A stretch of DNA of 47,364 nucleotides from Aurantimonas coralicida (lineage in GTDB: Bacteria > Pseudomonadota > Alphaproteobacteria > Rhizobiales > Rhizobiaceae): contig DRFF01000056.1 in NCBI GenBank assembly GCA_011050685.1, positions 1-47,364 of the forward strand, written 5' to 3'. Under the pieces are notes generated by a model. The model did not search any database. It saw only the letters and a list, made by a program, of their open reading frames with translations, and was not told the origin of the DNA. Made by a program: the position numbers and the translations under genes. Each line of letters starts with the position of its first letter. Positions within the stretch are counted from its first letter, which is position 1. Below, piece after piece: positions 9,947 to 44,990 of this stretch.

Positions 9947-9960
9947 TTGACCTTGCGCAA
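9947..9960. promoter_or_regulatory. FixK/FNR-type site TTGACCTTGCGCAA
   Basis: Fits TTG(A/C)-N6-(T/G)CAA, the broader FixK2 consensus, with one half TTGAC and the other CGCAA. A weak -10 (TCTGAT, 9983-9988) follows at the 22-base distance expected of a class II activated promoter, predicting a start near 9995, about 36 bases before the gene at 10031. Confidence 0.6.
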
Positions 9961-10030
9961 GTCGCGGTGGAGTTTGCTGTGGTCTGATTGTCGGCAATGG
10001 CGCCCAACCCCAATCAGGAGTCACGACCCA

Positions 10031-10390
10031 ATGATCCTGCCGAATGATACACTCGTAGCGGTCGCCGACGGCGCGACCCTCAAACTGTTCCGGAACAGAG
10101 GTGTCGAGCCCCATATCGACCTCGTGGCCGTCGATGATCCGAAGGTCGCGGCGACCAACCCCCGGTCGGGCGCCCGACACAGGAATGCCTCGGCCAATCC
10201 GGACTCCCACCGCAGTGCAGAGGATGGTTTCGCGGCGGCCAGCGCCGGTTATCTGAATCGTTTGGCGATCGCCGGCGAACTCGGCCCGGTCTTTGTCATC
10301 GCCGACCCTAGGACATTGGGGGAATTGCGACGGAATTTTCACCCTCGGTTGCAGGCGAAGATTGTCAGCGAGTTGGCGAATGATCGGTGA
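10031..10390 (+). CDS. Host-attachment (PF10116 / baeRF-like) family protein
   Basis: A 119-residue protein: an N-terminal strand TLVAVADGATLKLFRN, a variable basic middle, then LAIAGELGPVFVIADPRTLGELRRNF and QAKIVSELAND. This matches the family named after an Agrobacterium host-attachment protein and related to the eRF1-like baeRF fold. Its biochemical role is unknown; the name should not be read as proof of attachment. The start at 10031 has AGGAG ten bases upstream, and long in-frame upstream sequence is antisense to trxC. A second, longer paralogue lies at 16780-17220. Preceded by a FixK-type site. Confidence 0.75.
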   Translation: MILPNDTLVAVADGATLKLFRNRGVEPHIDLVAVDDPKVAATNPRSGARHRNASANPDSHRSAEDGFAAASAGYLNRLAIAGELGPVFVIADPRTLGELRRNFHPRLQAKIVSELANDR

Positions 10391-10655
10391 GATCCTTCGA
10401 TCCACGATATCTCAACGGCCCTACACAATGCGTGAACCGGTCGGCAGCCGCGACAAGCGGGTCGCCCGGGCTCAGGCCAATATCGCGGAGGCTGCGGCCG
10501 GCGGCACCTTGGCAACGCCGTCGGCGTAGGCCTCGAAAGCCGCGCGGTTGAGCGCGTGGACTCCGGTGAAAACCGGTTTCGCGGTGCACAGCGTGTTGTA
10601 GGATGAGTCTGCCAACCCCGATGGCCGCGCAGCTGAATCCAGGACAGGGTATCCG

Positions 10656-12554
10656 TTGAACTCAATCCTCCACGATCGTCTGAACACCGCCCTGCTGACC
10701 GTTGCATTCCTCGGCCTCGTCGGGGGGCTCGGCCTGACATTTGCCGATCTGCCGCAACTAGCGGATACGATCTGGGCGGCGGGTGTCCTGCCGGTCCTCG
10801 CCGCCTTGGTCGTGGAGATCGTCCGGAGTCTGCGGCAAGGCGATGTCGGGTTGGACATTGTCGCCGCACTGTCGATGTCGGCGGCACTGCTGTTTGGCGA
10901 GACGCTCGCGGCGGCGGTCGTGGCGCTGATGTATTCGGGGGGAACCTTCCTTGAAAGCTTCGCCGAGGGTCGCGCCCGACGAGAGATGAGCGATCTTCTC
11001 TCTCGTGTGCCTCGCACCGCGACGCGCCACCGCAACGGCACGCTCGACGACGTGCCCTTGGATGACGTCGAGCCTGGCGATCTTCTGCTGATCCGGCAGG
11101 GGGACGTGGCGCCCGTCGACGGCACAGTCGAAAACAGCCGCGCGATGGTCGACCAGTCGGCGCTGACCGGCGAGTCGATGCCCGTACGTCTGGAGCATGG
11201 GCAGGACGTGATGAGCGGTTCGACCAACGCGGGCGAACCTTTCGACCTGCGCGCCAATCGCCGGGCGGCCGACAGCACCTATGCCGGGATCGTCCGCTTG
11301 GTGGAGGAAGCGCAACGGTCCAAGGCCCCGATGGCTCGGCTCGCAGACCGGTATTCGCTGCTCTTTCTGATGGTCACAGTCGCGCTGGCGACGGCGGCGT
11401 GGTGGTTCACGGGCGATCCGATCCGCGCGGTCGCCGTTCTCGTCGTTGCCACGCCGTGCCCTCTCATCCTCGCGGTCCCTGTCGCTCTGGTGGCCGGCCT
11501 CTCTCGAGCGGCGCACTTCGGAGTGCTGATCAAGGGCGCCAAACCGCTCGAGGCGCTAGCGCGCATCCAAACCCTGATTCTCGATAAAACCGGCACGCTG
11601 ACTGATGGGCGTCCGCAGATCGTGTCGATCGACACTTATGGAGCCCTGTCTCAGCATGAGGTCCTGTACTTCGCTTCCGCCTTGGATCAGGCCTCCAAAC
11701 ATCCGATCGCCCAGGCCATCGTCGTTGCGGCGCGGACGCGCGGCGTCGTTTTGCCCGCGCCCGTCGACGTCGAGGAGATGCCAGGCGAAGGTGTGGCGGG
11801 GAAAGTGGACGGCAGGGATGTCGTGGTGGGCGGCGCGGCTTTCGTGACGGCGCGGGTCGACGGGCCCGATGCGCGGCATCGCGCCGGTGATGCGGGTTCT
11901 GTGCTCGTCGCTCTTGCTGTCGACGGCAAGCTTGCAGGACATCTCGTGATGGCGGACGTCCTGCGGTCGGGGACGGCCGAACTGCTTGCAAGCCTGCGCC
12001 GCCTCGGCATCCGGCGTATCCTGCTGGCGACGGGCGACCGTCAGGCCGTGGCCACGGCCGTCACCGAGGGGCTGGGGCTCGATGCAGTAAAAGCCGAGTT
12101 GACCCCGGACCAGAAGGTGCTGCTGGTGCTGGCCGAACGCAAGAACGGCCCCGTCATGATGGTGGGCGATGGCGTCAACGACGCACCGGCGCTCGCGGCC
12201 GCGGACATCGGCGTGGCCATGGGCGCGCGCGGTGCGGCCGCCTCGGCCGAGGCGGCCGACGTCGTCCTCCTGGTCGACCATCTCGACCGGCTGCTGCCGG
12301 GGCTCGAAGTGGCCCAACGGTCCCGCCGGATCGCGATCGAGAGTGTATTCGCCGGGATCGGCCTCTCGATCGTGGGAATGGTCGCTGCGGCTTTTGGCTA
12401 TCTCGCACCGGTGCAGGGGGCATTGCTGCAAGAAGTGATCGACGTCGCCGTGATCCTCAATGCGCTCAGAGCGCTGAGGATCGTGCCGCATGACGTGGCC
12501 AGCTCAGCGCTCCCATCGTCGGGACTTGGAAGGGCGAATGATGGAAGCGGTTGA
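10656..12554 (+). CDS. Heavy-metal (P1B-type) P-type ATPase without metal-binding domain, TPCP type
   Basis: A 632-residue P-type ATPase: TGES at 171-174 (actuator), TPCP at 266-269 (transport helix), DKTGT at 310-314 (phosphorylated Asp), an HP motif (SKHPIAQAI) and GDGVNDAPALAAADIGVAMG. The N-terminus lacks the usual CxxC domain and starts directly with helices. Canonical Cu or Zn pumps carry CPC or SPC; TPCP marks a less studied branch whose metal is uncertain, so I do not assign one. The start is TTG at 10656, with AGGACAGG upstream. Its stop codon lies inside the FNR-type site at 12551-12564 that precedes the next gene. Confidence 0.87.
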   Translation: MNSILHDRLNTALLTVAFLGLVGGLGLTFADLPQLADTIWAAGVLPVLAALVVEIVRSLRQGDVGLDIVAALSMSAALLFGETLAAAVVALMYSGGTFLESFAEGRARREMSDLLSRVPRTATRHRNGTLDDVPLDDVEPGDLLLIRQGDVAPVDGTVENSRAMVDQSALTGESMPVRLEHGQDVMSGSTNAGEPFDLRANRRAADSTYAGIVRLVEEAQRSKAPMARLADRYSLLFLMVTVALATAAWWFTGDPIRAVAVLVVATPCPLILAVPVALVAGLSRAAHFGVLIKGAKPLEALARIQTLILDKTGTLTDGRPQIVSIDTYGALSQHEVLYFASALDQASKHPIAQAIVVAARTRGVVLPAPVDVEEMPGEGVAGKVDGRDVVVGGAAFVTARVDGPDARHRAGDAGSVLVALAVDGKLAGHLVMADVLRSGTAELLASLRRLGIRRILLATGDRQAVATAVTEGLGLDAVKAELTPDQKVLLVLAERKNGPVMMVGDGVNDAPALAAADIGVAMGARGAAASAEAADVVLLVDHLDRLLPGLEVAQRSRRIAIESVFAGIGLSIVGMVAAAFGYLAPVQGALLQEVIDVAVILNALRALRIVPHDVASSALPSSGLGRANDGSG

Positions 12555-12564
12555 CGCCGATCAA
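12551..12564. promoter_or_regulatory. FNR/FixK-type site TTGACGCCGATCAA
   Basis: Exact TTGAY-N4-RTCAA. It includes the TGA stop of the P-type ATPase and stands 158 bases before the universal stress protein gene at 12722; predicted transcription start near 12599. Confidence 0.75.
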
Positions 12565-12721: not shown

Positions 12722-13558
12722 ATGAGTTACGCGTCGATCATGATGCATGTCGATAACGATGATGCGAGCACGGCCGCGCGTCTCGACCTCGCCGGCGCTC
12801 TTGCCACGCGCTTCGACGCGGTTTTGATCGGCGTGGCCGCCGCCGCGATACGCCCGCCGCCGGTCGACGCGTTTGGCGGTGTGGTGTTCGTCGACGTCAT
12901 CGCCGAAGAACGAGAGCGGATTGCCGCCGAAGTGCGAGCCGCAGAGGCGCGCTTCCGGTCTCATTTTTCCGGCCAAGCCATTACGACGGAGTGGCGCTCC
13001 GCGATTGATATGCCTGCCGAAACGCTGGCCCGCGAAGCTCGTTCGGCCGATCTGATCATCGTCGGGCGCGATCTGGACCAGCACCACGCCAGTGTCTACC
13101 AAACCGTCGATCCCGGCGAGGTCGTGATGGCTGCCGGTCGACCGGTCCTCATCGTCCCGCCAGGTACTCGTGCGCTTTCGGCCGAGCACGTGGTTATCGC
13201 CTGGAAGGACACCCGAGAGGCGCGCCGGGCACTATGGGACGCGTCGCCATTCCTGCGGGCGGCGGCGAGCGTCCACCTCGTCGAGATCGCCCCGAAAGCG
13301 GAATTGGGGGCCGCGCAAGCGCGCATCGCGGACGTCGTCCGTCATCTTGAGCGGCATCGGGTCAAGGCCCGCGCGGAAGTGCGCGCGCAACGAGAGGCAT
13401 CCGTGGCCGATGAACTCATCCTGATTGCCGAACAGAACGGTGCCGACCTCATTGTCGGGGGTGGATATGGCCATGCTCGCTTGCGAGAATGGGTCTTTGG
13501 CGGTGTAACCCACGACCTGCTGCGTCGCTGCCCGATATGCTGCCTCCTATCCCATTGA
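12722..13558 (+). CDS. Tandem universal stress protein (UspA family)
   Basis: A 278-residue protein with two Usp folds: residues 1-150 (SYASIMMHVD, then SADLIIVGRD and GRPVLIVPPGT) and 155-278 (AEHVVIAWKDTREARRAL, then GADLIVGGGYGHARLREWVFGG). The second half keeps the G-x2-G-x9-G nucleotide-binding loop; in the first half it is degenerate. Tandem Usps are typical of oxygen-limitation and stasis regulons. The start at 12722 has AGGAG eight bases upstream. An FNR-type site at 12551 precedes it and the phospholipase D gene follows 118 bases later, probably co-transcribed. Confidence 0.9.
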   Translation: MSYASIMMHVDNDDASTAARLDLAGALATRFDAVLIGVAAAAIRPPPVDAFGGVVFVDVIAEERERIAAEVRAAEARFRSHFSGQAITTEWRSAIDMPAETLAREARSADLIIVGRDLDQHHASVYQTVDPGEVVMAAGRPVLIVPPGTRALSAEHVVIAWKDTREARRALWDASPFLRAAASVHLVEIAPKAELGAAQARIADVVRHLERHRVKARAEVRAQREASVADELILIAEQNGADLIVGGGYGHARLREWVFGGVTHDLLRRCPICCLLSH

Positions 13559-13676: not shown

Positions 13677-15101
13677 ATGACCTGGAAGAGCTCCATCCTG
13701 CGGGAGTGCGACACGTGCTGGCGGATCGAAGCTGCGACCAAGGTGGCGCTACTCGCCGACGGCTGGGCATACCTGCCGGCCATGCGCGCCGCCATGGAGC
13801 GGGCCGAGCATTCCATTCTACTGGTCGGATGGGACTTCGACGCACGCGTGCCTTTTGGGCCCCCAACCGCCGAGGACCGGCATGCCGAACCGTTCTGCGA
13901 ACTGATGGCGCGCCTGTTGGCGCACAATCCCTCTCTGACGGTTCACATACTGATCTGGGAGATGGCGATAGGTTACAGCATCCAACGCCGGGACAGTCCC
14001 CGGCACGCGGCGCGATGGCTGCCCCGAGATCGTCTGGAATATCGGCTGGATGGCCGCCATCCGGTGGGCGCTTCGCACCATCAGAAAATCCTGGTTGTCG
14101 ATGATACCGTGGCGTTTTGCGGCGGCTCGGATTTCACGCGCAATCGCTGGGATACATCCCTGCATCTGCCGGCCGACAGTCGCCGCCGCACACTCGACGG
14201 GAGCATTTACAAGCCCCGACATGAGGTGATGCTCGCCGTCGCGGGACCAGCGGCGGCAGCCCTCGGCGAACTGGCGAGACGACGCTGGCATCGCGCCACC
14301 GGTGTTCAACTTCCGCGGCCAATCCCTGCAACGCCCGCCTGGCCCAAAGATCTCGTATCCGACATGAGCGATGTCAGAGTAGGGATCGCTCGAACCGAGC
14401 CCGCCGTCAGGGAGGTGGAAGCCCTCTATCTCGCCGCGATCGCTGCCGCCAGACACTGGATCTACCTGGAGAATCAGTATGTCACCTCGCCGGTTATCGC
14501 CGACGCCTTGGCGCAACGTCTCGGCGAGCGCGACGGTCCGGAAATCATCATCGTCTGCCCGGGTCGAAGCGTTGGGACCTTCGAGCGTTTTATCATGGAC
14601 CGCCCGCGAATCCCTCTGATTCACTCGCTCCGTTCAAGGGATGTCAACCAACGGTTGCGGGTCTTCGCTCCCATGGCCGCAATCGATCTGCCGATCACGG
14701 TGCATTCCAAGCTGATGGTGGTCGACAACCGTCTTTTGAGGGTCGGATCTGCAAATTTGAACAATCGGTCGCTCGGCCTCGATTCGGAATGTGACGTGGC
14801 GATCGAAGCCGGAGCGGATGATCTGGCGGCAAGACAGCGAATACTCGCCTTGCTGAGTCGCCTTGTGGGCGAGCATGTCGGCAGTCCGGCCGAGGTCTTT
14901 GCCGCCGTGTTGGAGCGATCGGGCAGTCTCATCGCGACGATCACTCTGCTCAACCAAGTCGAGGGGAGGCACCTCGAGCCGTTCCCGGCGCCGCGGCCGG
15001 GCTGGCTCGATCGTTGGCTTGGGCGGACGCATTTCTTTGATCCGTTCGACACGGCCGACAATTGGCGGCCATGGCGTCGCCTCCAGGGCCGACGACGCTG
15101 A
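13677..15101 (+). CDS. Phospholipase D / cardiolipin synthase superfamily protein
   Basis: A 474-residue protein with two HKD half-sites: HHQKILVVDDTVAFCGGSD at about 138 and VHSKLMVVDNRLLRVGSAN at about 342, each with H-x-K-x4-D. Such enzymes make or remodel phospholipids by phosphatidyl transfer, or hydrolyse them. There is no N-terminal membrane helix or signal peptide, so it is unlike E. coli ClsA. The segment IYLENQYVTSP before the second motif is typical of the PLD-like group with eukaryotic-type sequence. No separate regulatory site is seen, so it probably follows the Usp gene in one transcript. Confidence 0.88.
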   Translation: MTWKSSILRECDTCWRIEAATKVALLADGWAYLPAMRAAMERAEHSILLVGWDFDARVPFGPPTAEDRHAEPFCELMARLLAHNPSLTVHILIWEMAIGYSIQRRDSPRHAARWLPRDRLEYRLDGRHPVGASHHQKILVVDDTVAFCGGSDFTRNRWDTSLHLPADSRRRTLDGSIYKPRHEVMLAVAGPAAAALGELARRRWHRATGVQLPRPIPATPAWPKDLVSDMSDVRVGIARTEPAVREVEALYLAAIAAARHWIYLENQYVTSPVIADALAQRLGERDGPEIIIVCPGRSVGTFERFIMDRPRIPLIHSLRSRDVNQRLRVFAPMAAIDLPITVHSKLMVVDNRLLRVGSANLNNRSLGLDSECDVAIEAGADDLAARQRILALLSRLVGEHVGSPAEVFAAVLERSGSLIATITLLNQVEGRHLEPFPAPRPGWLDRWLGRTHFFDPFDTADNWRPWRRLQGRRR

Positions 15102-15134: not shown

Positions 15135-15148
15135 TTGACCGAAATCAA
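15135..15148. promoter_or_regulatory. FNR/FixK-type site TTGACCGAAATCAA
   Basis: Exact TTGAY-N4-RTCAA. Its centre predicts transcription from about 15183, between the site and the GTG start at 15217. The in-frame ATG at 15148 lies on the site itself and is therefore unlikely to be the start. Confidence 0.8.
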
Positions 15149-15216: not shown

Positions 15217-16731
15217 GTGACGACACTCGTGCAGACATCCTATCCACTTCGACGGTTGTTTCGCCGGCTCGACTTCGCCCCCGCGCCGAGGGACGATTCC
15301 CTGGGGCACCTCCTCGCGGTCTGGCAAGCGCGACGAGATGAGTTGATTTTTCCGTCGAAAAGCGGTCTCGACATCGAGAGTCTCGATCCGCAAGGCAAGT
15401 TTGCCTTCGTATATGGCGTGGCGGAGAAGGGGCGGAATTATACGCTTCGTTCCGGCGCCAGATCGGTGGATGCGGTGCTCGGGCATTGTGATGTCGGGGC
15501 AAGCTTATCCGACGCGCCACGCCGTCGCGGGGCGGTGCGGCTAAGGCGTTTGTTCGACGCCGTCCGGGAGGCAGGCGAACCCTTGCTTGCGGAGTTTACG
15601 CTCGACGAGGCCGGCAGCGAGGCGGAGGCGGTCGAGATGTTGCTGGCGCCGCTCTCCGAGGACGGCCGTACCATCGACGCGATTGTCGGCGGGCTGTCGC
15701 TTCGCGCGATCGAAACGGACGCGCTGAGCCCGAAACGACGTGCCGTGGCACGCCCGGACGGTCCGATGCTGTTCGCGCTCGGCTCCAGCGCATCCTTCGG
15801 GCAGCGTGTCGCCCGACATCTCGGCATCATGCTTGCGGCTCACGAGGAACGTTTTTTCGAGGACGGCGAACACAAGGCCCGTCCGCTCGTGAGCATTCGT
15901 GACCGCGATGTTTATGTCATCGACAGCCTCACCGGCGATCTGCGGCACACGAGCAATGACAAGCTGTGCCGGATGCTCTTCTTCATCGGAACCCTCAAGG
16001 ATTCCGGTGCTGGCCGCGTCACCGCCGTGGTTCCTTATCTCTGCTATGCCCGCAAGGACCGGCGGACCAAGAGTCGCGACCCGGTCACGACCCGCTATGT
16101 CGCACAACTGTTCGAGGCTGTCGGGACGGATCGCCTGATGAACATGGAGATTCATAATCTCGCCGCCTTCCAGAACGCTTTCCGCTGCCCGACGGTCCAT
16201 CTCGACGCCAACAGCGCCTTCATCAGCCATTTCGCGGCAAAGATCGGGGATGTGCCGGTTGCGGTCGTCTCGCCCGATCTCGGCGGCGCCAAGCGGGCGG
16301 AGATCTTTCGCGAGCGGTTGGAAACGATGCTCGGCCGTCCGGTCGCGAAAGGCTTCATGGACAAGCAGCGCAGTGGTGGTGTCGTGACGGGGGAGCTATT
16401 CGCGGGCGATGTCGACGGCCGCATGGTGATCGTGGTCGACGATCTGATCAGCACCGGGACCACAATGGCGCGGGTCGCGGCGGTCTGCCGTGCCAAAGGC
16501 GCGACGAAGGTTTCGGTCGTGGTGACCCATGGCCTGTTCACCGGTGGCGCTGATACGCTCTGGAGCGAGGCGGCGATCGATGAAGTCGTGATCACGGACA
16601 CCGTGCCGCTCCCCGCGCTCGACGCTGCGGCGGTCGCAAACCGCCTGGTCGTGCTGGAGACGGCGGACATTTTCGCCGATGCGATCGTAGCGTGTCGTGG
16701 CGCGGACTCCAGCCTTCACCGTCGGCGCTGA
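15217..16731 (+). CDS. PAS-domain / ribose-phosphate pyrophosphokinase fusion
   Basis: A 504-residue fusion. Residues about 25-180 resemble the alphaproteobacterial PAS_5 fold (VWQARRDELIFPSKSGLDI, FVYGVAEKGRNYTLRSG, MLLAPLSEDGRTIDAIVGGL). Residues about 188-504 are a PRPP synthetase: YARKDRRTKSRDPVTTR (ATP/ribose-phosphate region), VSPDLGGAKRAE, a catalytic-loop DKQRSG, and the PRPP loop VVDDLISTGTT. Prs makes PRPP from ribose-5-phosphate and ATP; a ligand- or redox-sensing PAS domain in front is not the usual form. The start is GTG at 15217, chosen because GGAGGGG lies ahead and the upstream ATG is inside the FNR-type site. It converges with the gene at 16780. Confidence 0.82.
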   Translation: MTTLVQTSYPLRRLFRRLDFAPAPRDDSLGHLLAVWQARRDELIFPSKSGLDIESLDPQGKFAFVYGVAEKGRNYTLRSGARSVDAVLGHCDVGASLSDAPRRRGAVRLRRLFDAVREAGEPLLAEFTLDEAGSEAEAVEMLLAPLSEDGRTIDAIVGGLSLRAIETDALSPKRRAVARPDGPMLFALGSSASFGQRVARHLGIMLAAHEERFFEDGEHKARPLVSIRDRDVYVIDSLTGDLRHTSNDKLCRMLFFIGTLKDSGAGRVTAVVPYLCYARKDRRTKSRDPVTTRYVAQLFEAVGTDRLMNMEIHNLAAFQNAFRCPTVHLDANSAFISHFAAKIGDVPVAVVSPDLGGAKRAEIFRERLETMLGRPVAKGFMDKQRSGGVVTGELFAGDVDGRMVIVVDDLISTGTTMARVAAVCRAKGATKVSVVVTHGLFTGGADTLWSEAAIDEVVITDTVPLPALDAAAVANRLVVLETADIFADAIVACRGADSSLHRRR

Positions 16732-16779: not shown

Positions 16780-17220
16780 TCAGCTGAGATGACGCTGGAT
16801 TTCGCCGACCGGGTGCTTCGTGAGGTCCTTGTCGATCTCGGCCACGATCAGCTTGCGGACCGCGTCGGTGAAACATTCTCGCAAAGTCGCCAGCGTCTTC
16901 GGCGGCGCCACGATGATCAGCGCCTTCAAGTCTTCCCGCGCGCGGAGCCGGTCGATCTCCTCGGCCACTTCGGATGCGAATGCCGCTTCGGCCGCGGCAT
17001 GCCAGTCGGTCTGCCCGACGGCGCTGCGCCGTCCCTGGGTCTGCGTTCTGCCGGGCTCGTCGCTTCCCTGCTCGCCGGTGGGCGGATTGTCCGGCGCTTC
17101 GAGAACATGCTCGACCGTTAGATTGGGATTGAACGGGCCGCCTTCGTTTATGAGCACGAGGGCCTTGCGCCCGTCGGCGACGAGGACCCGCGCATGGTGC
17201 GGGATCTTGACCGTGGTCAT
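16780..17220 (-). CDS. Host-attachment (PF10116 / baeRF-like) family protein, second copy
   Basis: A 146-residue PF10116 protein: HARVLVADGRKALVLINEG at the N-terminus, a polar linker with a TDWHAAAEAAFASEVAEEI helix, and DLKALIIVAPPKTLATLRECF plus VAEIDKDLTKHPVGEIQRHL at the C-terminus. The C-terminal lysine/threonine/histidine segment (DLTKHPVGEI) is a family signature better kept here than in the shorter copy at 10031-10390. AGGAAG precedes the start. A near-perfect FNR-type site lies 66 bases upstream. Confidence 0.82.
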   Translation of the reverse strand: MTTVKIPHHARVLVADGRKALVLINEGGPFNPNLTVEHVLEAPDNPPTGEQGSDEPGRTQTQGRRSAVGQTDWHAAAEAAFASEVAEEIDRLRAREDLKALIIVAPPKTLATLRECFTDAVRKLIVAEIDKDLTKHPVGEIQRHLS

Positions 17221-17285: not shown

Positions 17286-17299
17286 TTGACAAGGATCAT
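17286..17299. promoter_or_regulatory. Imperfect FNR/FixK-type site TTGACAAGGATCAT
   Basis: One base short of the palindromic consensus (last A is T). It is centred 72 bases before the PF10116 gene at 17220 (minus strand), predicting a start near 17251. Confidence 0.5.
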
Positions 17300-17376: not shown

Positions 17377-18429
17377 CTATCGCAGGGCCTCCTCCGCCAA
17401 GGCGAGGTATCGGCTCGCGAGCGGTTCCCACTTGGCTGGCTCTCTTGGTGCGGCGTCGAGAAGATGGGCGAGGGAAAGCCGTACGCGCAACATCGCGCGA
17501 AACGCGGTGTAGAACGCGATCAGTCGCGGCGGCGGGCGATCGCCGAGTTGGTCCGCTACCGCCGCGACAAGGGTCGGGCCGATGGCGGGCGCGCTCAGTA
17601 TTCGGCATTCCAGGCCGAGAAAGGCCAACTCGTCGAGCGGATCGACGAGGCGCAATTCTCGGCTGAATTCGAGGCAATCGAAGATCACGATCGGATCGGT
17701 CAGGCAGATGTGCTCCGGTCGCAGGTCACCGTGCCCCTCGACGATGCGGCCGGTCCGCGCCCGCTCCTCGATCAGCGGGCGGTCTTCCGCCATTCTCTGG
17801 TCGAGCAGGTCCAGCACTGTCGGAAGGCGCGTGTGATCCACCGCGAAGGCGCGCCGCGTCAGGATCGCCCGGTTTTCCGCCTGCTGCGCCATGAGACGGT
17901 CGACATAGGCAGTCGGATCGACGGCCGGATGGTCGGCTGCACGGTAGAACCGCGCCAGGAGAGCCGCGATCTGATCTGTCTCGGCCGCGCCGATTCGGTC
18001 TTCTTGAAGCATCCGGTCGAACATGCGGTCCGCCGGCAGACGTCGCATGACCACCAGCCAGTCTACGATGGATCCGCTGCCGCCGAGCGCCAGCGCGCCG
18101 GCGTCGTCCTCGGTAAGGGGAACGGTTCCCAGATAGGTCTGCGGCGCCAGCCGCCGGTTGAGACGGACTTCCTCGCCGCAATTCTCTTCGCGGGCCGCCA
18201 ATGTGGTGAAATCCAGGAACGGGAAGCGGACCGGCTTCTTCAGCTTGTAGACGAGGTCGCCGGCTAGAAAAACCCAGGACATGTGGGTCTCCGTAACGAG
18301 GACATCGGCTGGGGCATGATCGTAGGAGGCCGGCTCGCTGAGGAACCGGACCTTGGCTTCGATGGCGCGAGTGTCGGCGCCATCGGGCGGCGACGCGGGG
18401 ATTTCAGCGAATGTCGGGTCGCTCGGCAT
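17377..18429 (-). CDS. COG2187 aminoglycoside-phosphotransferase-like kinase
   Basis: A 350-residue protein of the kinase-like family. The N-terminal lobe has THMSWVFLAGDLVYKLKKPV, whose lysines act as nucleotide contacts. The C-terminal lobe has the catalytic loop EGHGDLRPEHICL and the metal-binding IFDCLEF. The C-terminal P-loop domain carried by many COG2187 proteins is absent. The substrate is unknown; similarity to antibiotic kinases is only of fold. Rv2004c of the mycobacterial DosR regulon belongs to the same broad family. The ATG at 18429 is used because similarity starts soon after; an alternative ATG is at 18465. It lies 74 bases downstream of the DUF2267 gene. Confidence 0.8.
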   Translation of the reverse strand: MPSDPTFAEIPASPPDGADTRAIEAKVRFLSEPASYDHAPADVLVTETHMSWVFLAGDLVYKLKKPVRFPFLDFTTLAAREENCGEEVRLNRRLAPQTYLGTVPLTEDDAGALALGGSGSIVDWLVVMRRLPADRMFDRMLQEDRIGAAETDQIAALLARFYRAADHPAVDPTAYVDRLMAQQAENRAILTRRAFAVDHTRLPTVLDLLDQRMAEDRPLIEERARTGRIVEGHGDLRPEHICLTDPIVIFDCLEFSRELRLVDPLDELAFLGLECRILSAPAIGPTLVAAVADQLGDRPPPRLIAFYTAFRAMLRVRLSLAHLLDAAPREPAKWEPLASRYLALAEEALR

Positions 18430-25030: not shown

Positions 25031-25090
25031 CGGAAAGACGCGTTCCTGTCGTGGTTGCGGCCGCGTGATGCTGGATCAGCCTTGGCTCGG

Positions 25091-36100: not shown

Positions 36101-36459
36101 GCGACGTGCGTGGCTCCGAGCCTGGAATCGGGGAGGCGGGCTGGACCTGGTACACCGGCGCCGCAGGCTGGACATGGCAACTCGCCGTCGAAGGCATTCT
36201 CGGCGTCAGCCTTCGGCAGGGTGCCGTGCATATCGCTCCGCGCCTGCCGAGGGCTTGGGGCGGAGCCGACGTCAGGGTGAAGGGACCAACCGGAAGTTTG
36301 ATGATCGGCATCGCAGATCCCGATCATCTGGGCACCGGACGGGTGGAGCTCACGGTCAACGGCGCGCGCATCAAGGGCGATTGCGTCGCGTTTCCGACGG
36401 ACGAAACGGAACACCGCGTCGTCGCACGCTTGTGTCCGATCGAGGCTGGGATCGCTTAG
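33142..36459 (+). CDS. ndvB: Cyclic beta-1,2-glucan synthase NdvB/ChvB, C-terminal GH94 part (frameshifted gene)
   Basis: About 1105 residues continuing NdvB. The GH94-type beta-glucan phosphorylase module controls chain length in characterised homologues (Brucella Cgs). Visible family blocks include ILLDNSYGGFSPANGDYVIH, TPWSNDPLVDP, GAFGFRDQLQDMMAL, LHWWHPPAGRGVRTHCSDD, GTGDWNDGMDRVG with the likely catalytic Asp, and NGGQYTHAAAW. The upstream end (MAQD at 33142) has no ribosome site and lies inside the preceding frame, so it is not an independent gene but the tail of the frameshifted synthase. If the frameshift is real, the cell would make a synthase without its length-control module. Confidence 0.86.
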   Translation: MAQDSAVMPAGFETDRRAFLSRHGNSEHPPGATGVLAGRAGWTLDPVMALRARIRLAPGARAQLAFVTTAAGSRETALETAERYATVPALDWAMEDALRSAAIEARRLGMDTRALAEAQALCRDLVFPRLPAHLSVAVSQMGLPAQAQLWSMGLSGDLPIVLVRVADDLHAQLLPSVVRAHQWWLRRGLRADIVILREGASGYQEPTRELLFSTLREARVPEGLGGSGGVHLLAADQFGAGERLALTASARLSLDGAATSLTNAVTAPRPVRIGPPHFQPVGPSPPEPTPVAELSRPPDILLDNSYGGFSPANGDYVIHLEGGRKTPAPWCNVLANERFGTIVSESGLGFTWCINSGEHRLTPWSNDPLVDPQAEALYLRDEETARIWTPTPLPSGGDTTCQIRHSPGATTWQRNGEGLEQRLTVFVPPDASVKLALLSLFNPGQSGRRFTATYYAEWLLGALGSTARPHVVTGYDAESRALIARNGWNPEFGDRTAFLAASRPPHSLTCDRTAFLGWQGDRVHPAGLLAWSLDGVLDGIADPCAAFQVHIDLAPGATEEVVFVLGEGNDATDAARLAAHWGDVGRARTALAANQALWTKRLGVVTVSTPDPAFDLLVNRWLVNQTLASRVFARAGFHQAGGAFGFRDQLQDMMALLFAEPQRVRAHILECAARQFEQGDVLHWWHPPAGRGVRTHCSDDLLWLVYATGRYVEATGDSAILAEEVAFLSAAPLGDEEEDRYALFEPGSERATLFEHCRRALARGVTAGAHGLPLMGTGDWNDGMDRVGREGRGESVWLAWFAAVCADAFAELARVVGREDLDELWKARAGDLRMAADTAGWDGGWYARAFADDGLPWGSKDNDECQIDSISQSWAALAGGPSPTRTAAAVAAATARLVDPETRLVRLLTPPFDRTPRDPGYIRAYPPGVRENGGQYTHAAAWLGLAHARLGDGDRAYQIFDLINPIRRTASRAGAELYGAEPYVLPGDVRGSEPGIGEAGWTWYTGAAGWTWQLAVEGILGVSLRQGAVHIAPRLPRAWGGADVRVKGPTGSLMIGIADPDHLGTGRVELTVNGARIKGDCVAFPTDETEHRVVARLCPIEAGIA

Positions 36460-36558: not shown

Positions 36559-38528
<1,970 letters not shown>

Positions 38529-38532
<4 letters not shown>

Positions 38533-38840
38533 ACGTGCGACGCGATGAGCAGGACAAGCCAGTCGAGACGGAGAAGGTCAATCATCTGGCTGAGACCGTC
38601 CGAATCAGAGGCGAGCGCCACCGCCAATGGCTGCGGGAGGGCGAGCCGACGGTGGCGAAGCGGCTGGCGCAGATCGGCGTTCTCGGCTGGATCATCGTGG
38701 TGCCGACCCTCATCGGCCTCTTCGTGGGTCGCTGGCTCGACCGGATGTTCGAGTCGGGACTGACGATCACCGGGGCGTTGCTGATGATCGGCCTTGCGAT
38801 CGGCTGCTGGTCGGCCTGGAAATGGATGAATGGGCAATGA
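38529..38840 (+). CDS. atpQ: N-type ATPase small membrane subunit AtpQ
   Basis: A 103-residue protein with a charged cytosolic N-terminus (45 residues) and two helices (IGVLGWIIVVPTLIGLFVGRWL and ITGALLMIGLAIGCWSAW), related to AtpI/AtpZ. The GRWLDRMF and GCWSAWKWM patterns are typical of the N-ATPase version. AtpI-like proteins assist c-ring assembly or bind Mg2+; the exact role of AtpQ is not established. Four-base overlaps on both sides keep it in the operon. Confidence 0.85.
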
Positions 38841-39142
38841 CCCTGATCGATACCGCCCAGGCGATGGACTGGCGAACGCCGATGGTGCTTTTCGGCTTCC
38901 TCGCGGCGGGCCTTGCTCTCGGCTTGGCCCACTTCTCGGCCCTCTGGTACCAGGCACAGCGGCTCGCGAGCGGTACGTCACCTTGGCGGACCGCGACCGT
39001 GGCGATCGCGCGGTTCGCGCTGCTTGTCGGAGCGCTCACGCTGGCCAGCCTCCACGGCGCGCCGGCCCTGTTCGCGATGACGATCGGCTTGCTCGGCGGC
39101 CGCGCCTTCGTCATGCGCCGTGTTGGAAGGCTCGCCGAATGA
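38837..39142 (+). CDS. atpR: N-type ATPase small membrane subunit AtpR
   Basis: A 101-residue protein with three predicted helices (VLFGFLAAGLALGLAHFSALW, VAIARFALLVGALTLASL and LFAMTIGLLGGRAFVMR). A conserved-looking arginine in each of the last two helices is the feature by which AtpR was proposed to face the c-ring and the a subunit. AtpR occurs only in N-ATPase operons, so its presence is strong support for the operon type. The start at 38837 overlaps the atpQ stop. Confidence 0.87.
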   Translation: MTLIDTAQAMDWRTPMVLFGFLAAGLALGLAHFSALWYQAQRLASGTSPWRTATVAIARFALLVGALTLASLHGAPALFAMTIGLLGGRAFVMRRVGRLAE

Positions 39143-39837
39143 ACTCGCCGCTGACCACCGAAGCGATGTTCCAGCTTGGCCCGGTCCCGATTACCGAGCC
39201 GATCCTCGTAACCTGGGCGTTGATGGTGCTGCTCGCCGCCGGTGGCATGGCGGTGTCTCGTCGTCTGTCGCTCGTGCCGTCGTCGCTTCAGGCGGCGCTG
39301 GAACTTGTCGTCGTGACGGTCGACGGGCAGATCCGCGAAACGATGCAGGCGGAGCCCGCTGACTATCGCGCCTTCATCGGTACGCTCTTCGTCTTCATTC
39401 TCTTCGCTAACTGGACCTCGCTGGTGCCAGGCGTCGAGCCGCCGACCGCCAATCTGGAAACCGACGCGGCGTTGGCGCTGCTGGTCTTCCTGGCGGTGAT
39501 CTGGTTCGGCGTCCGGGCGGGGGGCGTCGGTGGCTATCTCAAAAGCTTTGCCTCGCCGAGCGTCCTGATGATCCCGCTCAACTTCGTCGAGAGCATCACA
39601 CGCACCTTCTCCCTGCTCGTTCGCCTCTTCGGCAACATCATGAGCGGGGTTTTCGTCATCGGCATCGTCCTGTCGCTGGCCGGGCTCCTCGTCCCGATCC
39701 CGTTGATGGCGCTCGATCTCCTGACCGGTGCCGTCCAGGCCTACATCTTCGCCGTCCTCGCGACGGTGTTCATCGCCGGAGCCGTCAATGACGGACGCCC
39801 GGCTCCCACGAAGACCAAGGAAAGGGCTACACAATGA
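39139..39837 (+). CDS. atpB: N-type ATPase a subunit
   Basis: A 232-residue membrane a subunit with about five to six helices. The essential arginine lies in [18 protein letters not shown] at about residue 165; it faces the c-ring carboxylates during ion translocation. The segment [27 protein letters not shown] forms the ion-channel region. It is shorter than E. coli subunit a (271) at the N-terminus, as in other N-ATPases. Four-base overlaps join it to atpR and atpE. Confidence 0.92.
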
Positions 39838-40079
39838 ACTGGCTAGCGCTCGCAAGCATTCTGGGCGCGGTGATCGCGGTTTCCTTCGGCGCGATCGGAC
39901 CGGCCCTCGCCGAGGGGCGCTCGGTCGCCGCGGCGATGGACGCCATCGCCCGGCAGCCCGAAGCGTCCGCGACGATCTCCCGCACGCTGTTCGTCGGTCT
40001 GGCGATGATCGAGACCATGGCGATCTATTGCCTGGTCGTGGCGTTGCTTCTGCTTTTCGCCAACCCCTTGTTGCTCTGA
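39834..40079 (+). CDS. atpE: N-type ATPase c subunit with two carboxylates
   Basis: An 81-residue hairpin of two helices. The main ion-binding glutamate is E60 in the second helix (MIETMAIY). Aligned with the sodium-binding c subunit of Ilyobacter tartaricus, E60 equals E65, T61 equals S66, M62 equals T67 and Y65 equals Y70. The position of Q32 is a second glutamate, E27 (PALAEGRS). Two carboxylates per hairpin were found in the proton-specific c17 ring of the Burkholderia pseudomallei N-ATPase, so the ion here could be H+ despite the partial sodium signature. Overlaps atpB by four bases. Confidence 0.93.
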
Positions 40080-40085
40080 TTGCCC

Positions 40086-40812
40086 ATGCGCATCGACTGG
40101 TGGACGTTGGGCATCCAGACCGTCAACGTCCTGATCCTGGTCTGGCTCCTGGCGCGCTTCTTCTGGCGACCGCTCGCGGCGATGATCGAGACGCGGCGCA
40201 AGGCCGCGGCGGGGTCTCTGGCCGAGGCGGAGGCCGAGCGTAGCGAGGCGCGATCGGCGCTCGCCGAAATCGAGACGACGCGCGCGGGCTTTGCCGAGGA
40301 GCGGGCGCGTATCGTCGCGGAGGCACAGGTCGCCGCCGAAAAGGTCCGTGCCGGCGTGTTGGCAAAGGCCGAAGCGGAAGCGGAGGTTCTGAGGGATACG
40401 GCGAGAGCGGAAATCGAGAAGGAAACGGAGGCGAATCGCGAGAATTGGGCCGAGCAGGCCTCCCGGCTCGCCGTCGACATCGCCCGGCGACTGGTGGCGC
40501 GATTGGACGACAAGGCTTTGCAGGAGGCATTTTTGGATTCGCTGGTCGCGGAGATAGGCCGTCTTCCCGACCATGCCCGTCACAGCCTTGCACGGGACGG
40601 CGCGATCTTCGAGGCGGTCAGTGCCAGCCCTCTCGCGGACGAAGACAAGGAGCGCGTCCGGACGCGTCTCGTCGACGCGCTGGGCGGCAGCCCGAGGCTC
40701 GACTTCAAGGCGGATCCCAAGCTGCTCGCCGGCCTTGAATTGCATGGATCGCATATCCTGGTGACCAACAGCTGGCGCGCCGATCTCGACCGCATCCTGA
40801 CGGAGCTTTCCC

Positions 40813-40829
<17 letters not shown>
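40086..40829 (+). CDS. atpF: N-type ATPase b subunit with delta-like C-terminal extension
   Basis: A 247-residue protein, far longer than subunit b alone (about 155). An N-terminal helix ([15 protein letters not shown]) anchors a long alanine/glutamate-rich coiled coil, about 35-150. The last 90 residues are not coil-like: SLVAEIGRL, then [33 protein letters not shown]. They resemble the C-terminal strand region of the delta/OSCP subunit. This fits the absence of atpH from the operon: the stator cap seems fused to b. The ATG at 40086 is used; the preceding TTG at 40080 is less likely. It overlaps atpA by 17 bases. Confidence 0.88.
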
Positions 40830-42353
<1,524 letters not shown>

Positions 42354-42357
<4 letters not shown>

Positions 42358-43211
42358 GCGACCGGCTCGCCGACGTCTCTGCCCGCATCGAGGGCATCCG
42401 CCAGCTCGGCACCGTGGTCAACGCCATGCGTGGGATCGCCGGGGCTCGGGTGCAGAAAGCGCGCGACGAGTTGAGCGCGGTCGACGCCTACGCCCAGACG
42501 ATCGCCGCGGGGCTTGCTCAGGTATTGGCCCAGGTTTCCACCGAGGCGCCGCCTCCACCGGAGCGGACGAGCAAGGCAGCGCTCGTCGTCTTTGGCGCCG
42601 AACAGGGGTTCGCCGGAGCCTTCAACGAGCGCGTGTTGGCGACGATCGCCGACGAGGTGCCGGTGCCGGTGCTCTTTCTTATCGGCACGCGCGGATTATC
42701 CCATGCCGCCGAACGAGGCATTGCGGCCGACTGGACCAGCGCGATGCCCTCCCATTCCTCCGGCATTCCGAAGCTCGCCAGCGACATTTGCGACGCGCTC
42801 TACCAGAGGATCGGGGCAGGAGGGGTCGAACGGGTGACGGCGGTCTTCGCCGATGGGTCCGTCGGGGCCGAGCCGACGGTCGTTCGTCGGCCTCTTCTGC
42901 CGCTGGACCCTGCCACGTTCGCGGGGGTTGAGCACAGGAAGCCGCCGATCCTTAATTTGCCGACCCGCAAGCTCCTGGCCGATCTCACCGCCGAATACTT
43001 GCATGCTCTGTTCTGCGAGGTTGCGTTGCACGCCTTCGCTGCGGAAAACCAGGCACGGATGACGGCAATGGCCGCGGCGCATCGCGAAATCGATCGGCAG
43101 CTCGGCGCTTTGCGGGCGACGTTCCGACATGTACGCCAGGAACAGATCACCGCGGAGATCATCGAGCTCGCAGGCGGCGCGGCGGCGAGCCAGAGGCGAC
43201 CAGGAGTGTGA
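42354..43211 (+). CDS. atpG: N-type ATPase gamma subunit
   Basis: A 285-residue gamma subunit, the rotating central shaft. The paired terminal helices are clear: [29 protein letters not shown] at the start and [27 protein letters not shown] towards the end. The middle domain ([19 protein letters not shown]) keeps the family GxQGLCGxxN pattern as [11 protein letters not shown]. It is the last gene of the nine-gene set. The beta-CASP nuclease gene follows after 87 bases without a visible terminator. Confidence 0.92.
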
Positions 43212-43298: not shown

Positions 43299-44918
43299 AT
43301 GAGCCAAGATAGCACGAAAACGGGCCAGGGCTCGATCCTCCGGTTCCACGGAGCGGCACAGGCCGTCACCGGCTCATGTTTCGAACTGGAGGTTGCCGGC
43401 GGCCGGCTTTTGATCGACTGCGGCCTGTTCCAGGGATCGAAGTCGGAGAAGGAGTTGAACTACCGCGCCTTTCCGTTCGAGCCGAAGCAGGTCGATGCGG
43501 TGCTGCTGACCCACGCCCACATCGACCATTCCGGGCTGCTACCGAAGCTGACCAAGCATGGGTTCGGCGGCCCCGTCTTCGCCAGCCGCGCGACCCAGGA
43601 CCTGTGCAGCGTCATGCTGCCCGACTCGGCCTATATCCAGGATACCGAAGTCGCGCATCTCAACCGCCGCAACAAGCGGCGCGGTCGCAGGGTCGTGGCG
43701 CCGATCTATGACGCTGCCGACGTCGCCCAATGCCTGAGCCAATTCCGGGCCATTGCGTTCAACGCATGGTTCGATGTGATGGCCGGCGTCAGGGCGCGTT
43801 ATTGGAACGCGGGGCACCTTCTCGGCTCTGCCTCCATCGAAATCGAGATCGCCAGCTCCGGAGATCGACCACTGCGGCTGCTGTTTTCCGGCGACCTCGG
43901 CCCCGCTCACAAGCTGTTGCAAGCCGATCCGGACGCGCCGAGCGGCTTCGACTATGTCATCTGCGAAAGCACTTACGGCGACGAAGATCGTGCCGGGGCG
44001 TCGGAAGCCGATCGTCGCCGGATGCTGCGAGACGCGGTGAGGGCGGCGAACAACCCGGGCGGGGCGCTCCTGATCCCGTCCTTTGCGGTCGAACGGACGC
44101 AGGAGCTCCTGGTCGACCTGCAGCGTCTCATCGAGACCGGCGATCTGCCGGCGATTCCGATCGTCATCGATTCGCCGCTCGCCACCCGTGCCACCCGGGT
44201 CTTCCACGACCATGCGGGGGAATTGGAGCACGGCGATATTCTGTCGCGCGCTTTGCGGGCACCGAACATCCGCTTCACCGAGACGGTCGACGAGAGCAAA
44301 GCGCTGGATCGGATGAAAGGCTTCCATATCGTGATCGCGGCCAGCGGAATGTGCGAGGCCGGACGCATCCGGCATCGTTTGAAGAATTGGCTGTGGCGGC
44401 CGGAAGCGACCGTGCTTTTTGTCGGCTTCCAGGCCCAGGGCACGCTGGGCCGGATATTGAAGGACGGGGCTCGTCAGGTCCGTATTCAAGGCGATGAGTT
44501 CGTCGTGCGGGCACAAATCCGCGAGATCGATCTCTACTCCGGCCATGCCGACGGACCCGAGCTTTGCGAATGGCTGTCGGAACGGCGTCCGGTGGAGGCC
44601 GGTCTGTTCCTCGTGCATGGGGAAGTCGAGGCGATCGAGGGGCTGAAGCAGCGTGTGAGCGCGGTGATTCCGAACGAGCGGGTCATCGTGCCGCGATTGG
44701 ACGACGGCTTCAGGCTCACGGCCGAGGCCGCCATCCCGCTGAAATCCGACACGCCGCGCCGCCTCGACCCGGGCAAGCTGGCTCATCTCGACTGGCACAA
44801 CGACGTTTCGAAACTCTTCCTCGACATTAATGAAAGGCTCGAAAAGGCGGCCGACGACAAGGCGCGCGGGGTTGTGATCCGGACACTTCGACGCGCCCTC
44901 GGCGCGAGTGACGGTTAG
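43299..44918 (+). CDS. Metallo-beta-lactamase / beta-CASP RNase-like protein
   Basis: A 539-residue nuclease-type MBL. The zinc site HAHIDHSG lies near residue 72, followed by WNAGHLLGSASI and FSGDLG. The beta-CASP part has ESTYGDEDR, IPSFAVERTQELL, VDESKALD and ASGMCEAGRIRHRL, and the C-terminal SGHAD and VHGE motifs close the active site. This is the bacterial CPSF73-like group, acting on RNA ends. GGAG precedes the start. It follows the N-ATPase operon closely in the same direction, suggesting the same FNR-type control. No coupling to RNase J is visible. Confidence 0.88.
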   Translation: MSQDSTKTGQGSILRFHGAAQAVTGSCFELEVAGGRLLIDCGLFQGSKSEKELNYRAFPFEPKQVDAVLLTHAHIDHSGLLPKLTKHGFGGPVFASRATQDLCSVMLPDSAYIQDTEVAHLNRRNKRRGRRVVAPIYDAADVAQCLSQFRAIAFNAWFDVMAGVRARYWNAGHLLGSASIEIEIASSGDRPLRLLFSGDLGPAHKLLQADPDAPSGFDYVICESTYGDEDRAGASEADRRRMLRDAVRAANNPGGALLIPSFAVERTQELLVDLQRLIETGDLPAIPIVIDSPLATRATRVFHDHAGELEHGDILSRALRAPNIRFTETVDESKALDRMKGFHIVIAASGMCEAGRIRHRLKNWLWRPEATVLFVGFQAQGTLGRILKDGARQVRIQGDEFVVRAQIREIDLYSGHADGPELCEWLSERRPVEAGLFLVHGEVEAIEGLKQRVSAVIPNERVIVPRLDDGFRLTAEAAIPLKSDTPRRLDPGKLAHLDWHNDVSKLFLDINERLEKAADDKARGVVIRTLRRALGASDG

Positions 44919-44941
44919 ATGCATGAGGCCTCCTTCGCGGC

Positions 44942-44955
44942 TTGATCCGGATCAA
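44942..44955. promoter_or_regulatory. FNR/FixK-type site TTGATCCGGATCAA
   Basis: A perfect full 14-bp palindrome, first of a tandem pair (centres 35 bases apart) upstream of the Hsp20 remnant and ftsH. Confidence 0.85.
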
Positions 44956-44976
44956 GCGCCGCCAAGATGCAAAATC

Positions 44977-44990
44977 TTGATCAGGATCAA
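44977..44990. promoter_or_regulatory. FNR/FixK-type site TTGATCAGGATCAA
   Basis: Second site of the tandem pair; exact consensus. It predicts transcription from about 45025, through the Hsp20 remnant into ftsH. Confidence 0.85.

Follow-up and report, generated by a model that had tools for sequence, protein, structure and literature searches.

A probable low-oxygen persistence island in Aurantimonas with predicted FNR/FixK operators and an N-type ATPase operon

Islands of the kind described here are already known from Burkholderia and Bradyrhizobium. According to published accounts, the lxa locus of Burkholderia encodes PpsA, universal stress proteins (USPs), a heat-shock protein, a metallo-beta-lactamase protein, an FtsH-like peptidase and a cation ATPase (PMC4981469). 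The locus is patchy among strains, CRP-family genes are its putative regulators and the mutant survives anoxia less well (PMC6127331, PMC4981469, PMC3759415). In Bradyrhizobium diazoefficiens, the region bll4634-blr4655 is described as FixK2-dependent and contains genes for USP, host attachment, Hsp20, nitroreductase-DnaJ and ppsA; most units have their own FixK2 box, and hspC2 and ppsA were activated in vitro (PMC9104804). Many of these families are reported as microoxia-induced (PMC6515984). The genes bll4644 (USP), bll4645 (host attachment) and ppsA were listed as microoxia-induced and outside the direct FixK2 regulon of 2008 (PMC6515984, Table 2), and were given FixK2 boxes in a 2022 table (PMC9104804). 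In a comparative reconstruction of alphaproteobacterial FnrN/FixK regulons, the terms universal stress, heat shock, ppsA and FtsH do not appear (PMC4999443). An Hsp20 gene of Rhizobium leguminosarum is described as FnrN-dependent.

In the DosR dormancy regulon of mycobacteria, too, low oxygen induces stress proteins together with a small heat-shock protein. Its regulator DosR, a response regulator of the two-component type, binds a different operator, and the likeness to the Aurantimonas island is one of working only; membership is not claimed. The lxa locus has been compared with DosR in the literature. Among the matches listed in a literature search on FNR/FixK, microaerobic growth and denitrification in Aurantimonas, none dealt with Aurantimonas, which does not prove absence from print.

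The DNA analysed here (the window) is one entire contig (C56) of 47,364 bp from a draft Aurantimonas genome of 4.86 Mb in 202 contigs. We consider the region between 9.9 kb and the end of the contig at 47.4 kb to be a patchy low-oxygen persistence island of the lxa/FixK2-cluster kind, with a probability of roughly 0.85. Its genes are as follows.

10031..10390, plus strand, baeRF_family12/Host_attach protein (PF18856 1.1e-18, PF10116 5e-17)
10656..12554, plus strand, heavy-metal P-type ATPase (TIGR01525, 519.8 bits, above cut-off)
12722..13558, plus strand, universal stress protein 1 (PF00582 7.3e-13)
13677..15101, plus strand, phospholipase D family protein (PF00614 9.4e-17)
15217..16731, plus strand, ribose-phosphate diphosphokinase-like (PRPP synthase-like) protein (TIGR01251, 228.5 bits, above cut-off; N-terminal ~200 residues without assignment)
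16780..17220, minus strand, baeRF_family12/Host_attach protein (PF10116 6.4e-40)
17377..18429, minus strand, presumably a kinase-like protein (no Pfam or NCBIfam matches; homologue in 31 of 40 stretches, often next to the PRPP synthase-like gene of relatives)
18504..18935, minus strand, DUF2267 protein (PF10025 1.3e-29)
19007..21397, minus strand, phosphoenolpyruvate synthase (TIGR01418, 1097 bits, above cut-off)
21441..21860, minus strand, small protein (no Pfam matches)
22190..23161, plus strand, calcineurin-like phosphoesterase (PF00149 6e-12)
23155..23651, minus strand, CarS-like gene (PF01864 in both pieces; two frames here, a single frame in A. marina)
23945..25030, minus strand, AI-2E family transporter (PF01594 1.2e-44)
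25027..26433, minus strand, erythromycin-esterase family protein (PF05139 1.2e-105 in the larger piece; frame broken near 26040-26130)
26997..28028, plus strand, universal stress protein 2 (PF00582 1e-39; two Usp stretches)
28025..36459, plus strand, cyclic glucan synthase-like protein, presumably NdvB-like (PF17167 2.7e-104, PF06165, PF13632, PF10091; glycosyl transferase 2 and GH94 domains; reading frame changes near 33142-33163)
36680..43211, plus strand, N-type (alternate F1F0) ATPase operon in the order beta-epsilon-AtpQ-AtpR-a-c-b-alpha-gamma
43299..44918, plus strand, metallo-beta-lactamase/beta-CASP nuclease-like protein (PF10996 3.2e-35, PF07521)
44990..45247, plus strand, Hsp20 gene remnant (PF00011 8.6e-07, profile positions 62-102 of 102, the domain end only)
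45407..47275, plus strand, FtsH protease (PF01434 3.5e-57)

The Hsp20 gene is intact in A. marina (PF00011 2.6e-27 over 1-102; L051:2253-2795). Several island genes are broken in the assembly, and the island may therefore be in partial decay. Next to it lies an NO-type cluster (NorB-like oxidase, ScdA/RIC and Rrf2).

Like lxa as published, the island clusters genes for USP, Hsp20 (the remnant), PpsA, FtsH, a cation P-ATPase and a metallo-beta-lactamase protein. It differs in having two USPs in the window instead of six, and no CRP-family gene on the contig, whereas BCAM0287 lies inside lxa. The published lxa table, in which many proteins are hypothetical, names no N-type ATPase, cyclic glucan synthase, phospholipase D or AI-2E genes; conversely, acetate kinase and PHB genes, which lxa has, are absent among the genes annotated in the window. 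The contig stops directly after ftsH, and the region beyond is outside the view of the assembly. Because of this unseen side and the lack of a CRP-family gene on the contig, we describe the island as being of an lxa-like kind and stop short of classing it with the lxa loci. With bll4634-blr4655 it shares stress and metabolic units with individual boxes. The companions there are GroEL, nitroreductase and RND efflux; here they are the N-type ATPase, cyclic glucan synthase, phospholipase D and the PRPP synthase-like protein. FixK2 control was measured in the Bradyrhizobium region according to its report, whereas in the Aurantimonas island it is predicted.

The following sites were located in the window.

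9947..9960, plus strand, wide-form site TTGACCTTGCGCAA in the divergent gap between the thioredoxin and baeRF12/Host_attach genes, with TCTGAT (2/3 bases) at class II spacing toward 10031
12551..12564, plus strand, exact site TTGACGCCGATCAA 5' of the USP gene, half-sites conserved in A. marina and A. marianensis
15135..15148, plus strand, exact site TTGACCGAAATCAA 5' of the PRPP synthase-like gene, half-sites conserved in both relatives
17286..17299, minus strand, one-mismatch site TTGACAAGGATCAT; TATCCT lies precisely at class II spacing toward 17220; conserved in both relatives, with the flanks there well conserved too
18997..19010, minus strand, wide-form site TTGCGCCAGATCAA 5' of the DUF2267 gene, with TAAAAG (2/3 bases) 1 base off class II spacing; A. 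marina retains the wide form
22028..22041, no strand given, exact site TTGACGCGGATCAA in a divergent gap, identical in A. marina
23743..23756, minus strand, wide-form site TTGATCCCGCGCAA, with the same half-sites and a changed spacer in A. marina
23806..23819, minus strand, exact site TTGACGGACGTCAA, half-sites retained in A. marina
26571..26584, minus strand, exact site TTGATATCCATCAA with TAGATT 1 base off class II spacing, toward the esterase gene
26653..26666, plus strand, exact site TTGACGCAGATCAA with TAATGT 1 base off class II spacing, toward USP 2
36559..36572, plus strand, exact site TTGATCGGAATCAA 5' of the N-type ATPase operon; TAGAGT lies precisely at class II spacing
44942..44955, plus strand, exact site TTGATCCGGATCAA; the A. 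marina counterpart has the wide form
44977..44990, plus strand, exact site TTGATCAGGATCAA, identical in A. marina

By sequence, the number of separate FNR/FixK-type operators is nine or more, and probably twelve or thirteen. Every one of the nine exact TTGAY-N4-RTCAA sites of the sequence-only reading was present, one of them starting at 26653 and not at 26654 as had been given. Its three TTGM-N6-KCAA wide sites (9947, 18997 and 23743) and the one-mismatch site at 17286 were likewise found. The wide form has two further matches in the window, at 42957 and 45626, which it had not listed; both are intragenic. Its placement of the sites at gene boundaries held for 13 of 13, all lying in gaps on a codon-based gene map; on this map 12551 and 18997 extend over the final bases of an adjacent gene, and 44977 just reaches the gene remnant. 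With the longest possible starts, 23743 and 23806 would sit in the first part of a reading frame.

Exact matches in the window (nine) were compared with 100 dinucleotide shuffles, which gave a mean of 0.11 and a maximum of 1; for the wide form, 14 matches were observed against a mean of 1.87 (maximum 7). The chance expectation for exact matches had earlier been put at 0.2, which is near the uniform-base count of 0.18 and generous because base composition alone gives 0.04. Genome-wide, the exact form occurs at 39 places in 4.86 Mb, against five for a reversed-pattern control. Nine of the 39 fall inside the window, which is 1% of the genome (expected 0.38, Poisson P ~3e-10). The density in the window is ~24 times the genome average, where a similar density throughout had been named as the outcome that would speak against an island. 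On the other contigs, the maximum was three exact sites per 47,364-bp stretch, with stretches taken within single contigs. Of the 30 exact sites beyond the window, four were called intragenic, one of these doubtfully; others front a cbb3-type oxidase operon, a FixG-type gene and three USP genes. TTGAY-N4-RTCAA operators are found outside genes more often than chance predicts, as in an FNR/FixK regulon. The wide FixK2 form was rejected as strong evidence on its own, with only 236 genome-wide matches against 138 for the reversed-pattern control; subtracting the exact counts leaves 197 non-exact wide matches against 133.

Conservation was assessed at the 11 sites with a counterpart in A. marina; 9947 and 36559 have none in the A. 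marina stretches and are outside the count. Half-site bases are retained at 108 of 110 positions, spacer bases at 36 of 44 and flank bases at 1184 of 1618 (73%), a difference between half-sites and flanks with P 3e-12. These values bear on the view that function is confined to the nine exact sites (and perhaps 17286), with the wide sites at 9947, 18997 and 23743 being background. The modest excess of the non-exact wide form over its control would fit that view, but 18997 and 23743 retain both half-sites in A. marina although bases between or around them differ, and we regard it as rather unlikely.

Of 58 one-direction sites, taken from this genome and others, 27 have a -10-like element (>=2/3 bases) at +29.5; across offsets the mean is 5.2 such matches and the runner-up has 13. 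The peak is where a class II FNR/FixK promoter requires its -10 element. Of the eight one-direction exact sites in the window, four have such an element (>=2/3 bases) exactly at class II spacing and six within 1 base of it. The operator-to--10 distance is compatible with class II activation, as in FNR/FixK regulons. The shuffles, the reversed-pattern control, the cross-species conservation and this -10 geometry argue against a chance or compositional accident or a set of functionless relics. Broken downstream genes and the modest genome-wide excess of the non-exact wide form would fit such a view; we nevertheless consider it highly improbable. The FNR/FixK reading is supported; A. marina conservation, the class II -10 element and the FixK2-dependent or low-oxygen expression published for the same gene families in Bradyrhizobium and Burkholderia agree with it.

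The activator had been predicted to be encoded outside the window. A search with a CRP-family HTH model gave 14 matches in the genome, none on this contig. Seven were above the cut-off; six (E <=3.2e-13) were taken as CRP-family genes, and the remaining matches, including the seventh (27.7 bits against 27), were set aside. A FixK, a cysteine-bearing FNR and two further FNR-like proteins are all encoded on other contigs, and these four have an FNR-type recognition helix. FixK has FixK2 (4i2o) as its best PDB match (1.4e-32), and its gene adjoins a FixL/FixJ-like pair (PAS histidine kinase and receiver-LuxR response regulator). FNR, on contig C66, has an N-terminal cysteine cluster, with FNR 9qlt as the best PDB match (2.7e-21); its gene adjoins hemN (TIGR00538) and the cbb3-type oxidase operon. 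Of the two further FNR-like genes, one (C5) lies next to a narK-like transporter and the other (C169) next to a cytochrome d1 (nir-type) cluster; exact sites are close by. Given these neighbours, NO- or nitrate-linked control may occur. The sites might be served mainly by an NO- or nitrite-responsive regulator of the Dnr/NnrR type, making the island one of denitrification or NO stress instead of low oxygen. The neighbourhoods of these two genes and the NO-type cluster beside the island would agree with this, and the two proteins share the recognition-helix type. However, that cluster itself carries no sites, there being no exact or wide match left of 9947, as had been claimed; the cbb3-type oxidase operon and the FixG-type gene, too, lie behind exact sites; and similar clusters are under FixK2 or low-oxygen control in the published accounts. 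We judge this explanation improbable.

The unusual part of the island is the N-type ATPase operon behind its well-placed site. The epsilon subunit matches its alternate model (TIGR03166, 116.8 against a cut-off of 100.1), as does AtpQ (TIGR02230, 67.1 against 46.7). The beta subunit (TIGR03305, 606 against 752), AtpR (32.3 bits against 55.5) and the alternate a, b, c, alpha and gamma models match below their own cut-offs. The beta-epsilon-first order with AtpQ and AtpR genes is that of N-type operons, the AtpR model being below its cut-off. Other N-type ATPase operons share this order and AtpQ but lack the site as a rule: among 23 further beta-subunit homologues from 397 genomes of the order, one had an exact and one a wide site within 500 bp upstream (one locus offered just 388 bp of upstream DNA). 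The idea that N-type ATPase operons generally lie behind an FNR/FixK site was rejected. A 2017 study describes the cellular functions of N-type ATPases as largely unexplored and proposes proton pumping for pH homeostasis (PMC5376962). A literature search found no apparent report linking an N-ATPase operon with FNR, which leaves absence from print unproven.

The PRPP synthase-like gene was used as the island marker in other genomes. The island is present in three of eight Aurantimonas genomes, the marker being full-length in two of the seven others of the genus; as in lxa-type islands, presence is irregular among near relatives. Marker neighbourhoods in 36 other alphaproteobacterial genomes hold 58 sites against 3.9 expected and none for the reversed control. 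Four of them (9, 7, 5 and 4 sites) supply 25 of the 58, and 11 have no exact site. Site-rich neighbourhoods across all Proteobacteria were rejected, six of seven stretches outside the Alphaproteobacteria having no site. Many gene families in the 36 stretches have no exact site within 300 bp upstream (FtsH 0 of 3, P-ATPase 0 of 3, DUF2267 0 of 4, PEP synthase 1 of 5). In genome G1058, 31 of 54 exact sites fall inside a 122-kb region that also holds homologues of nine kinds of genes in the window; from its sequence, this region appears to be an lxa locus.

For the low-oxygen persistence island, the following working is proposed. Each predicted operator fronts a gene or short operon, and many have class II geometry, with the centre near -41.5 and the -10 element ~30 bp downstream. 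As each unit has its own operator, one diffusible activator encoded elsewhere could turn on all units jointly. The likeliest activator would be FixK, beside its FixL/FixJ-like pair, or the cysteine-bearing FNR, acting as oxygen falls; low-oxygen induction of the island is what we infer. The products (USPs, Hsp20, which is decayed here, FtsH, PEP synthase, the PRPP synthase-like enzyme, the metal pump and membrane and envelope enzymes) would slow growth and protect the cell, and the N-type ATPase could consume ATP, keeping the membrane energised.

The comparison joins two literatures, as lxa in Burkholderia and the FixK2 region in Bradyrhizobium seem to be the same kind of element, and extends this kind to Aurantimonas, where its presence varies between species. 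Tentatively, and with somewhat less than even confidence, these islands may form one modular, horizontally reassorted family in Alpha- and Betaproteobacteria, built of cassettes with their own class II promoters and including the N-type ATPase as an anoxic pump. A cassette carrying its own class II FNR/FixK promoter would allow a new function, such as the N-type rotary ATPase, to be plugged into the oxygen circuit of the host. Low oxygen becomes a concrete candidate condition for an N-type ATPase, which, if this is true, would help the cell to survive anoxia by pumping at the expense of ATP to keep the membrane energised.

The window holds a multi-promoter survival island of the FNR/FixK type, which most likely serves under low oxygen. 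Sites, density, conservation and promoter geometry uphold both the operator cluster and this reading of it. All thirteen FNR/FixK-type operators that the sequence-only reading had placed between 9.9 and 45 kb were found in the window sequence, including the nine exact matches to TTGAY-N4-RTCAA (exact sites), one of which starts at 26653 rather than 26654. The wide form, TTGM-N6-KCAA (FixK2 type), gave two further matches absent from that list, at 42957 and 45626, both intragenic. In 100 dinucleotide shuffles of the window exact matches averaged 0.11 (maximum 1), against nine in the real sequence; wide-form matches in the shuffled window averaged 1.87 (maximum 7). The window makes up the entire contig C56 (47,364 bp) of a 4.86-Mb genome in 202 contigs. 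That genome contains 39 exact matches, versus five for a reversed control. Nine of the 39 lie in the window, where 0.38 would be expected (Poisson P ~3e-10), and the remaining 30 are scattered across 26 contigs, none of which has more than three in a window-length stretch; the objection that density might be similar across the genome, which the earlier reading had itself named as decisive against it, therefore fails. Taken alone, the wide form is near background (236 matches genome-wide versus 138 for the control).

Genes were mapped by codon usage, and 90% of the window was called coding. On this map all 13 sites are intergenic or extend a few bases into the end of a gene; if the longest possible starts are taken, 23743 and 23806 lie within the early part of a reading frame. 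Although 88% of the DNA is called coding in the window plus 36 stretches of other genera, 61 of their 67 exact sites are centred outside called genes. In the rest of the window's own genome, 26 of 30 exact sites are likewise outside called genes.

In class II promoters the operator is centred at −41.5, which places the −10 element 29.5 bp from the operator centre. Exact sites were pooled (n = 107: nine from the window, 30 from the rest of the genome, 10 from A. marina and 58 from other genera) and classed as one-direction (58), divergent (38), within genes (eight) or neither (two), with one outside these classes or lacking sequence. A TAnnnT-like hexamer (at least two of three bases) peaks exactly 29.5 bp from the centre in 27 of the 58 one-direction sites, against a mean of 5.2 over all offsets and 13 at the next best. 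In the window this spacing is exact for TAGAGT at 36559 and TATCCT at the one-mismatch site 17286. At the 26571/26653 pair, TAGATT faces the esterase gene and TAATGT the universal stress protein (USP) gene, each one base short of class II spacing; two sites would share one gap because one points each way. The start predicted from 26653 is at about 26700; with the USP 2 frame opening no earlier than 26997, the leader would be about 300 nt long (26667–26996). Two proteins of baeRF family 12/Host_attach (16780–17220 and 10031–10390) also sit behind sites. The Pfam name indicates a tie to release factors, and a link to translation or the ribosome under low oxygen is possible for this pair.

Within Aurantimonas, the named relatives were A. 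marina SW136 and A. marianensis LRZ36. Counterparts of all sites but 9947 and 36559, hence of 11 of the 13, are present in A. marina stretches. Over eight alignments 108 of 110 half-site bases were kept, compared with 36 of 44 in spacers and 1184 of 1618 in flanks (half-site versus flank, P 3e-12); the half-sites of wide-form sites 18997 and 23743 were also retained. The PRPP synthase-like gene (15217–16731), used as island marker, is present at full length in only two of seven other genomes of the genus, and the island is therefore patchy. In the A. marina stretch L051, the USP 2 and cyclic glucan synthase genes (window 27657–33377) survive only as fragments at positions 1087–1767, and no N-type ATPase (alternate F1F0 ATPase) or beta-CASP gene was found at the corresponding place. 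Which parts of the island are lost differs from species to species. Four window genes are interrupted or truncated:
23155–23651, CarS-like
25027–26433, erythromycin-esterase-like
28025–36459, cyclic glucan synthase-like
44990–45247, Hsp20 remnant
The CarS-like and Hsp20 genes are uninterrupted in A. marina. The four breaks reflect either real decay or draft-assembly errors.

Homologues of the PRPP synthase-like gene (E < 1e-60) occur in 21 others of 397 examined genomes of the order and 15 others of 385 examined genomes of the class. The 36 stretches (≤20 kb) around them hold 58 exact sites, versus 3.9 expected from each genome's own site density and no control matches. At least one site is present in 25 of the 36 and at least two in 12, and four stretches hold 25 of the 58. 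A site lies ≤300 bp upstream of 12/35 PRPP synthase-like, 12/29 kinase-like and 3/6 Hsp20-like genes, and of none of the three FtsH and four DUF2267 genes in these stretches. No exact site was found in six of seven stretches from outside the class; in the seventh genome, G1058, 31 of 54 exact sites lie within 122 kb. This region encodes a homologue of the window PEP synthase (71%), together with PRPP synthase-like, kinase-like, USP, beta-CASP, FtsH, esterase, Hsp20 and P-ATPase homologues. The N-terminal part of the PRPP synthase-like protein (15217–15830, about 200 amino acids) has no Pfam match, and the alignment starts at residue 1 in three of 36 homologues outside the genus.

The activator had been proposed to be encoded elsewhere, which agrees with a search by HTH model: none of its 14 CRP-family matches, six of them clear (E ≤ 3.2e-13), is on the window contig. 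One candidate activator is a FixK (best PDB match FixK2, 4i2o, 1.4e-32), whose gene neighbours a PAS histidine kinase and a receiver–LuxR response regulator, the make-up of FixL/FixJ. Another, an FNR whose N-terminus carries a cysteine cluster (best PDB match FNR, 9qlt, 2.7e-21), is encoded beside hemN (TIGR00538 above cut-off) and a cbb3-type oxidase operon. Two more candidate regulators carry an FNR-type recognition helix; the gene of one adjoins a narK-like transporter gene, that of the other a cytochrome d1 cluster. Within the window, a NorC-like protein (2872–3783) with two cytochrome c stretches adjoins a NorB-like oxidase and exceeds the usual NorC in length.

The putative N-type ATPase operon (36680–43211) lies behind site 36559, which ranks among the island's cleanest class II sites. 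Only epsilon and AtpQ score above the cut-offs of the alternate-type models, the other subunits falling below, so the label rests on those two and gene order. An FNR/FixK site as a general trait of such operons was rejected: among 23 other beta-subunit homologues in the 397 order genomes, one carries an exact match ≤500 bp upstream and one a wide-form match.

The closest known systems are described in Bradyrhizobium and Burkholderia. In the account of B. diazoefficiens, the FixK2-dependent region bll4634–blr4655 comprises GroEL, Hsp20, USP, host attachment protein, nitroreductase–DnaJ and ppsA units. Most of these units have a FixK2 box of their own, and hspC2 and ppsA are stated to have been validated through activation in vitro (PMC9104804). 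A second text reports microoxic induction of many of these families and marks bll4644, bll4645 and ppsA as not being members of the 2008 direct FixK2 regulon (PMC6515984). An Hsp20 gene of Rhizobium leguminosarum is described as FnrN-dependent, with an anaerobox (PMC11784457). The Burkholderia lxa locus is reported as low-oxygen-induced and irregularly present (PMC4981469, PMC6127331, PMC9104464, PMC9733578, PMC3759415); its described content is PpsA, six USPs, a heat-shock protein, a metallo-beta-lactamase protein, an FtsH-like peptidase and a cation ATPase, and the B. contaminans study also records expression in air (PMC4981469), so oxygen need not be the sole signal. The G1058 region (contig C3, 255000–377400; L119–L125) appears to be a giant lxa-like island. 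The window island is of the same kind as the lxa locus and the Bradyrhizobium FixK2-dependent region. This kind of island is already known and the window adds another instance, whose unusual part is the N-type ATPase operon behind a class II site.
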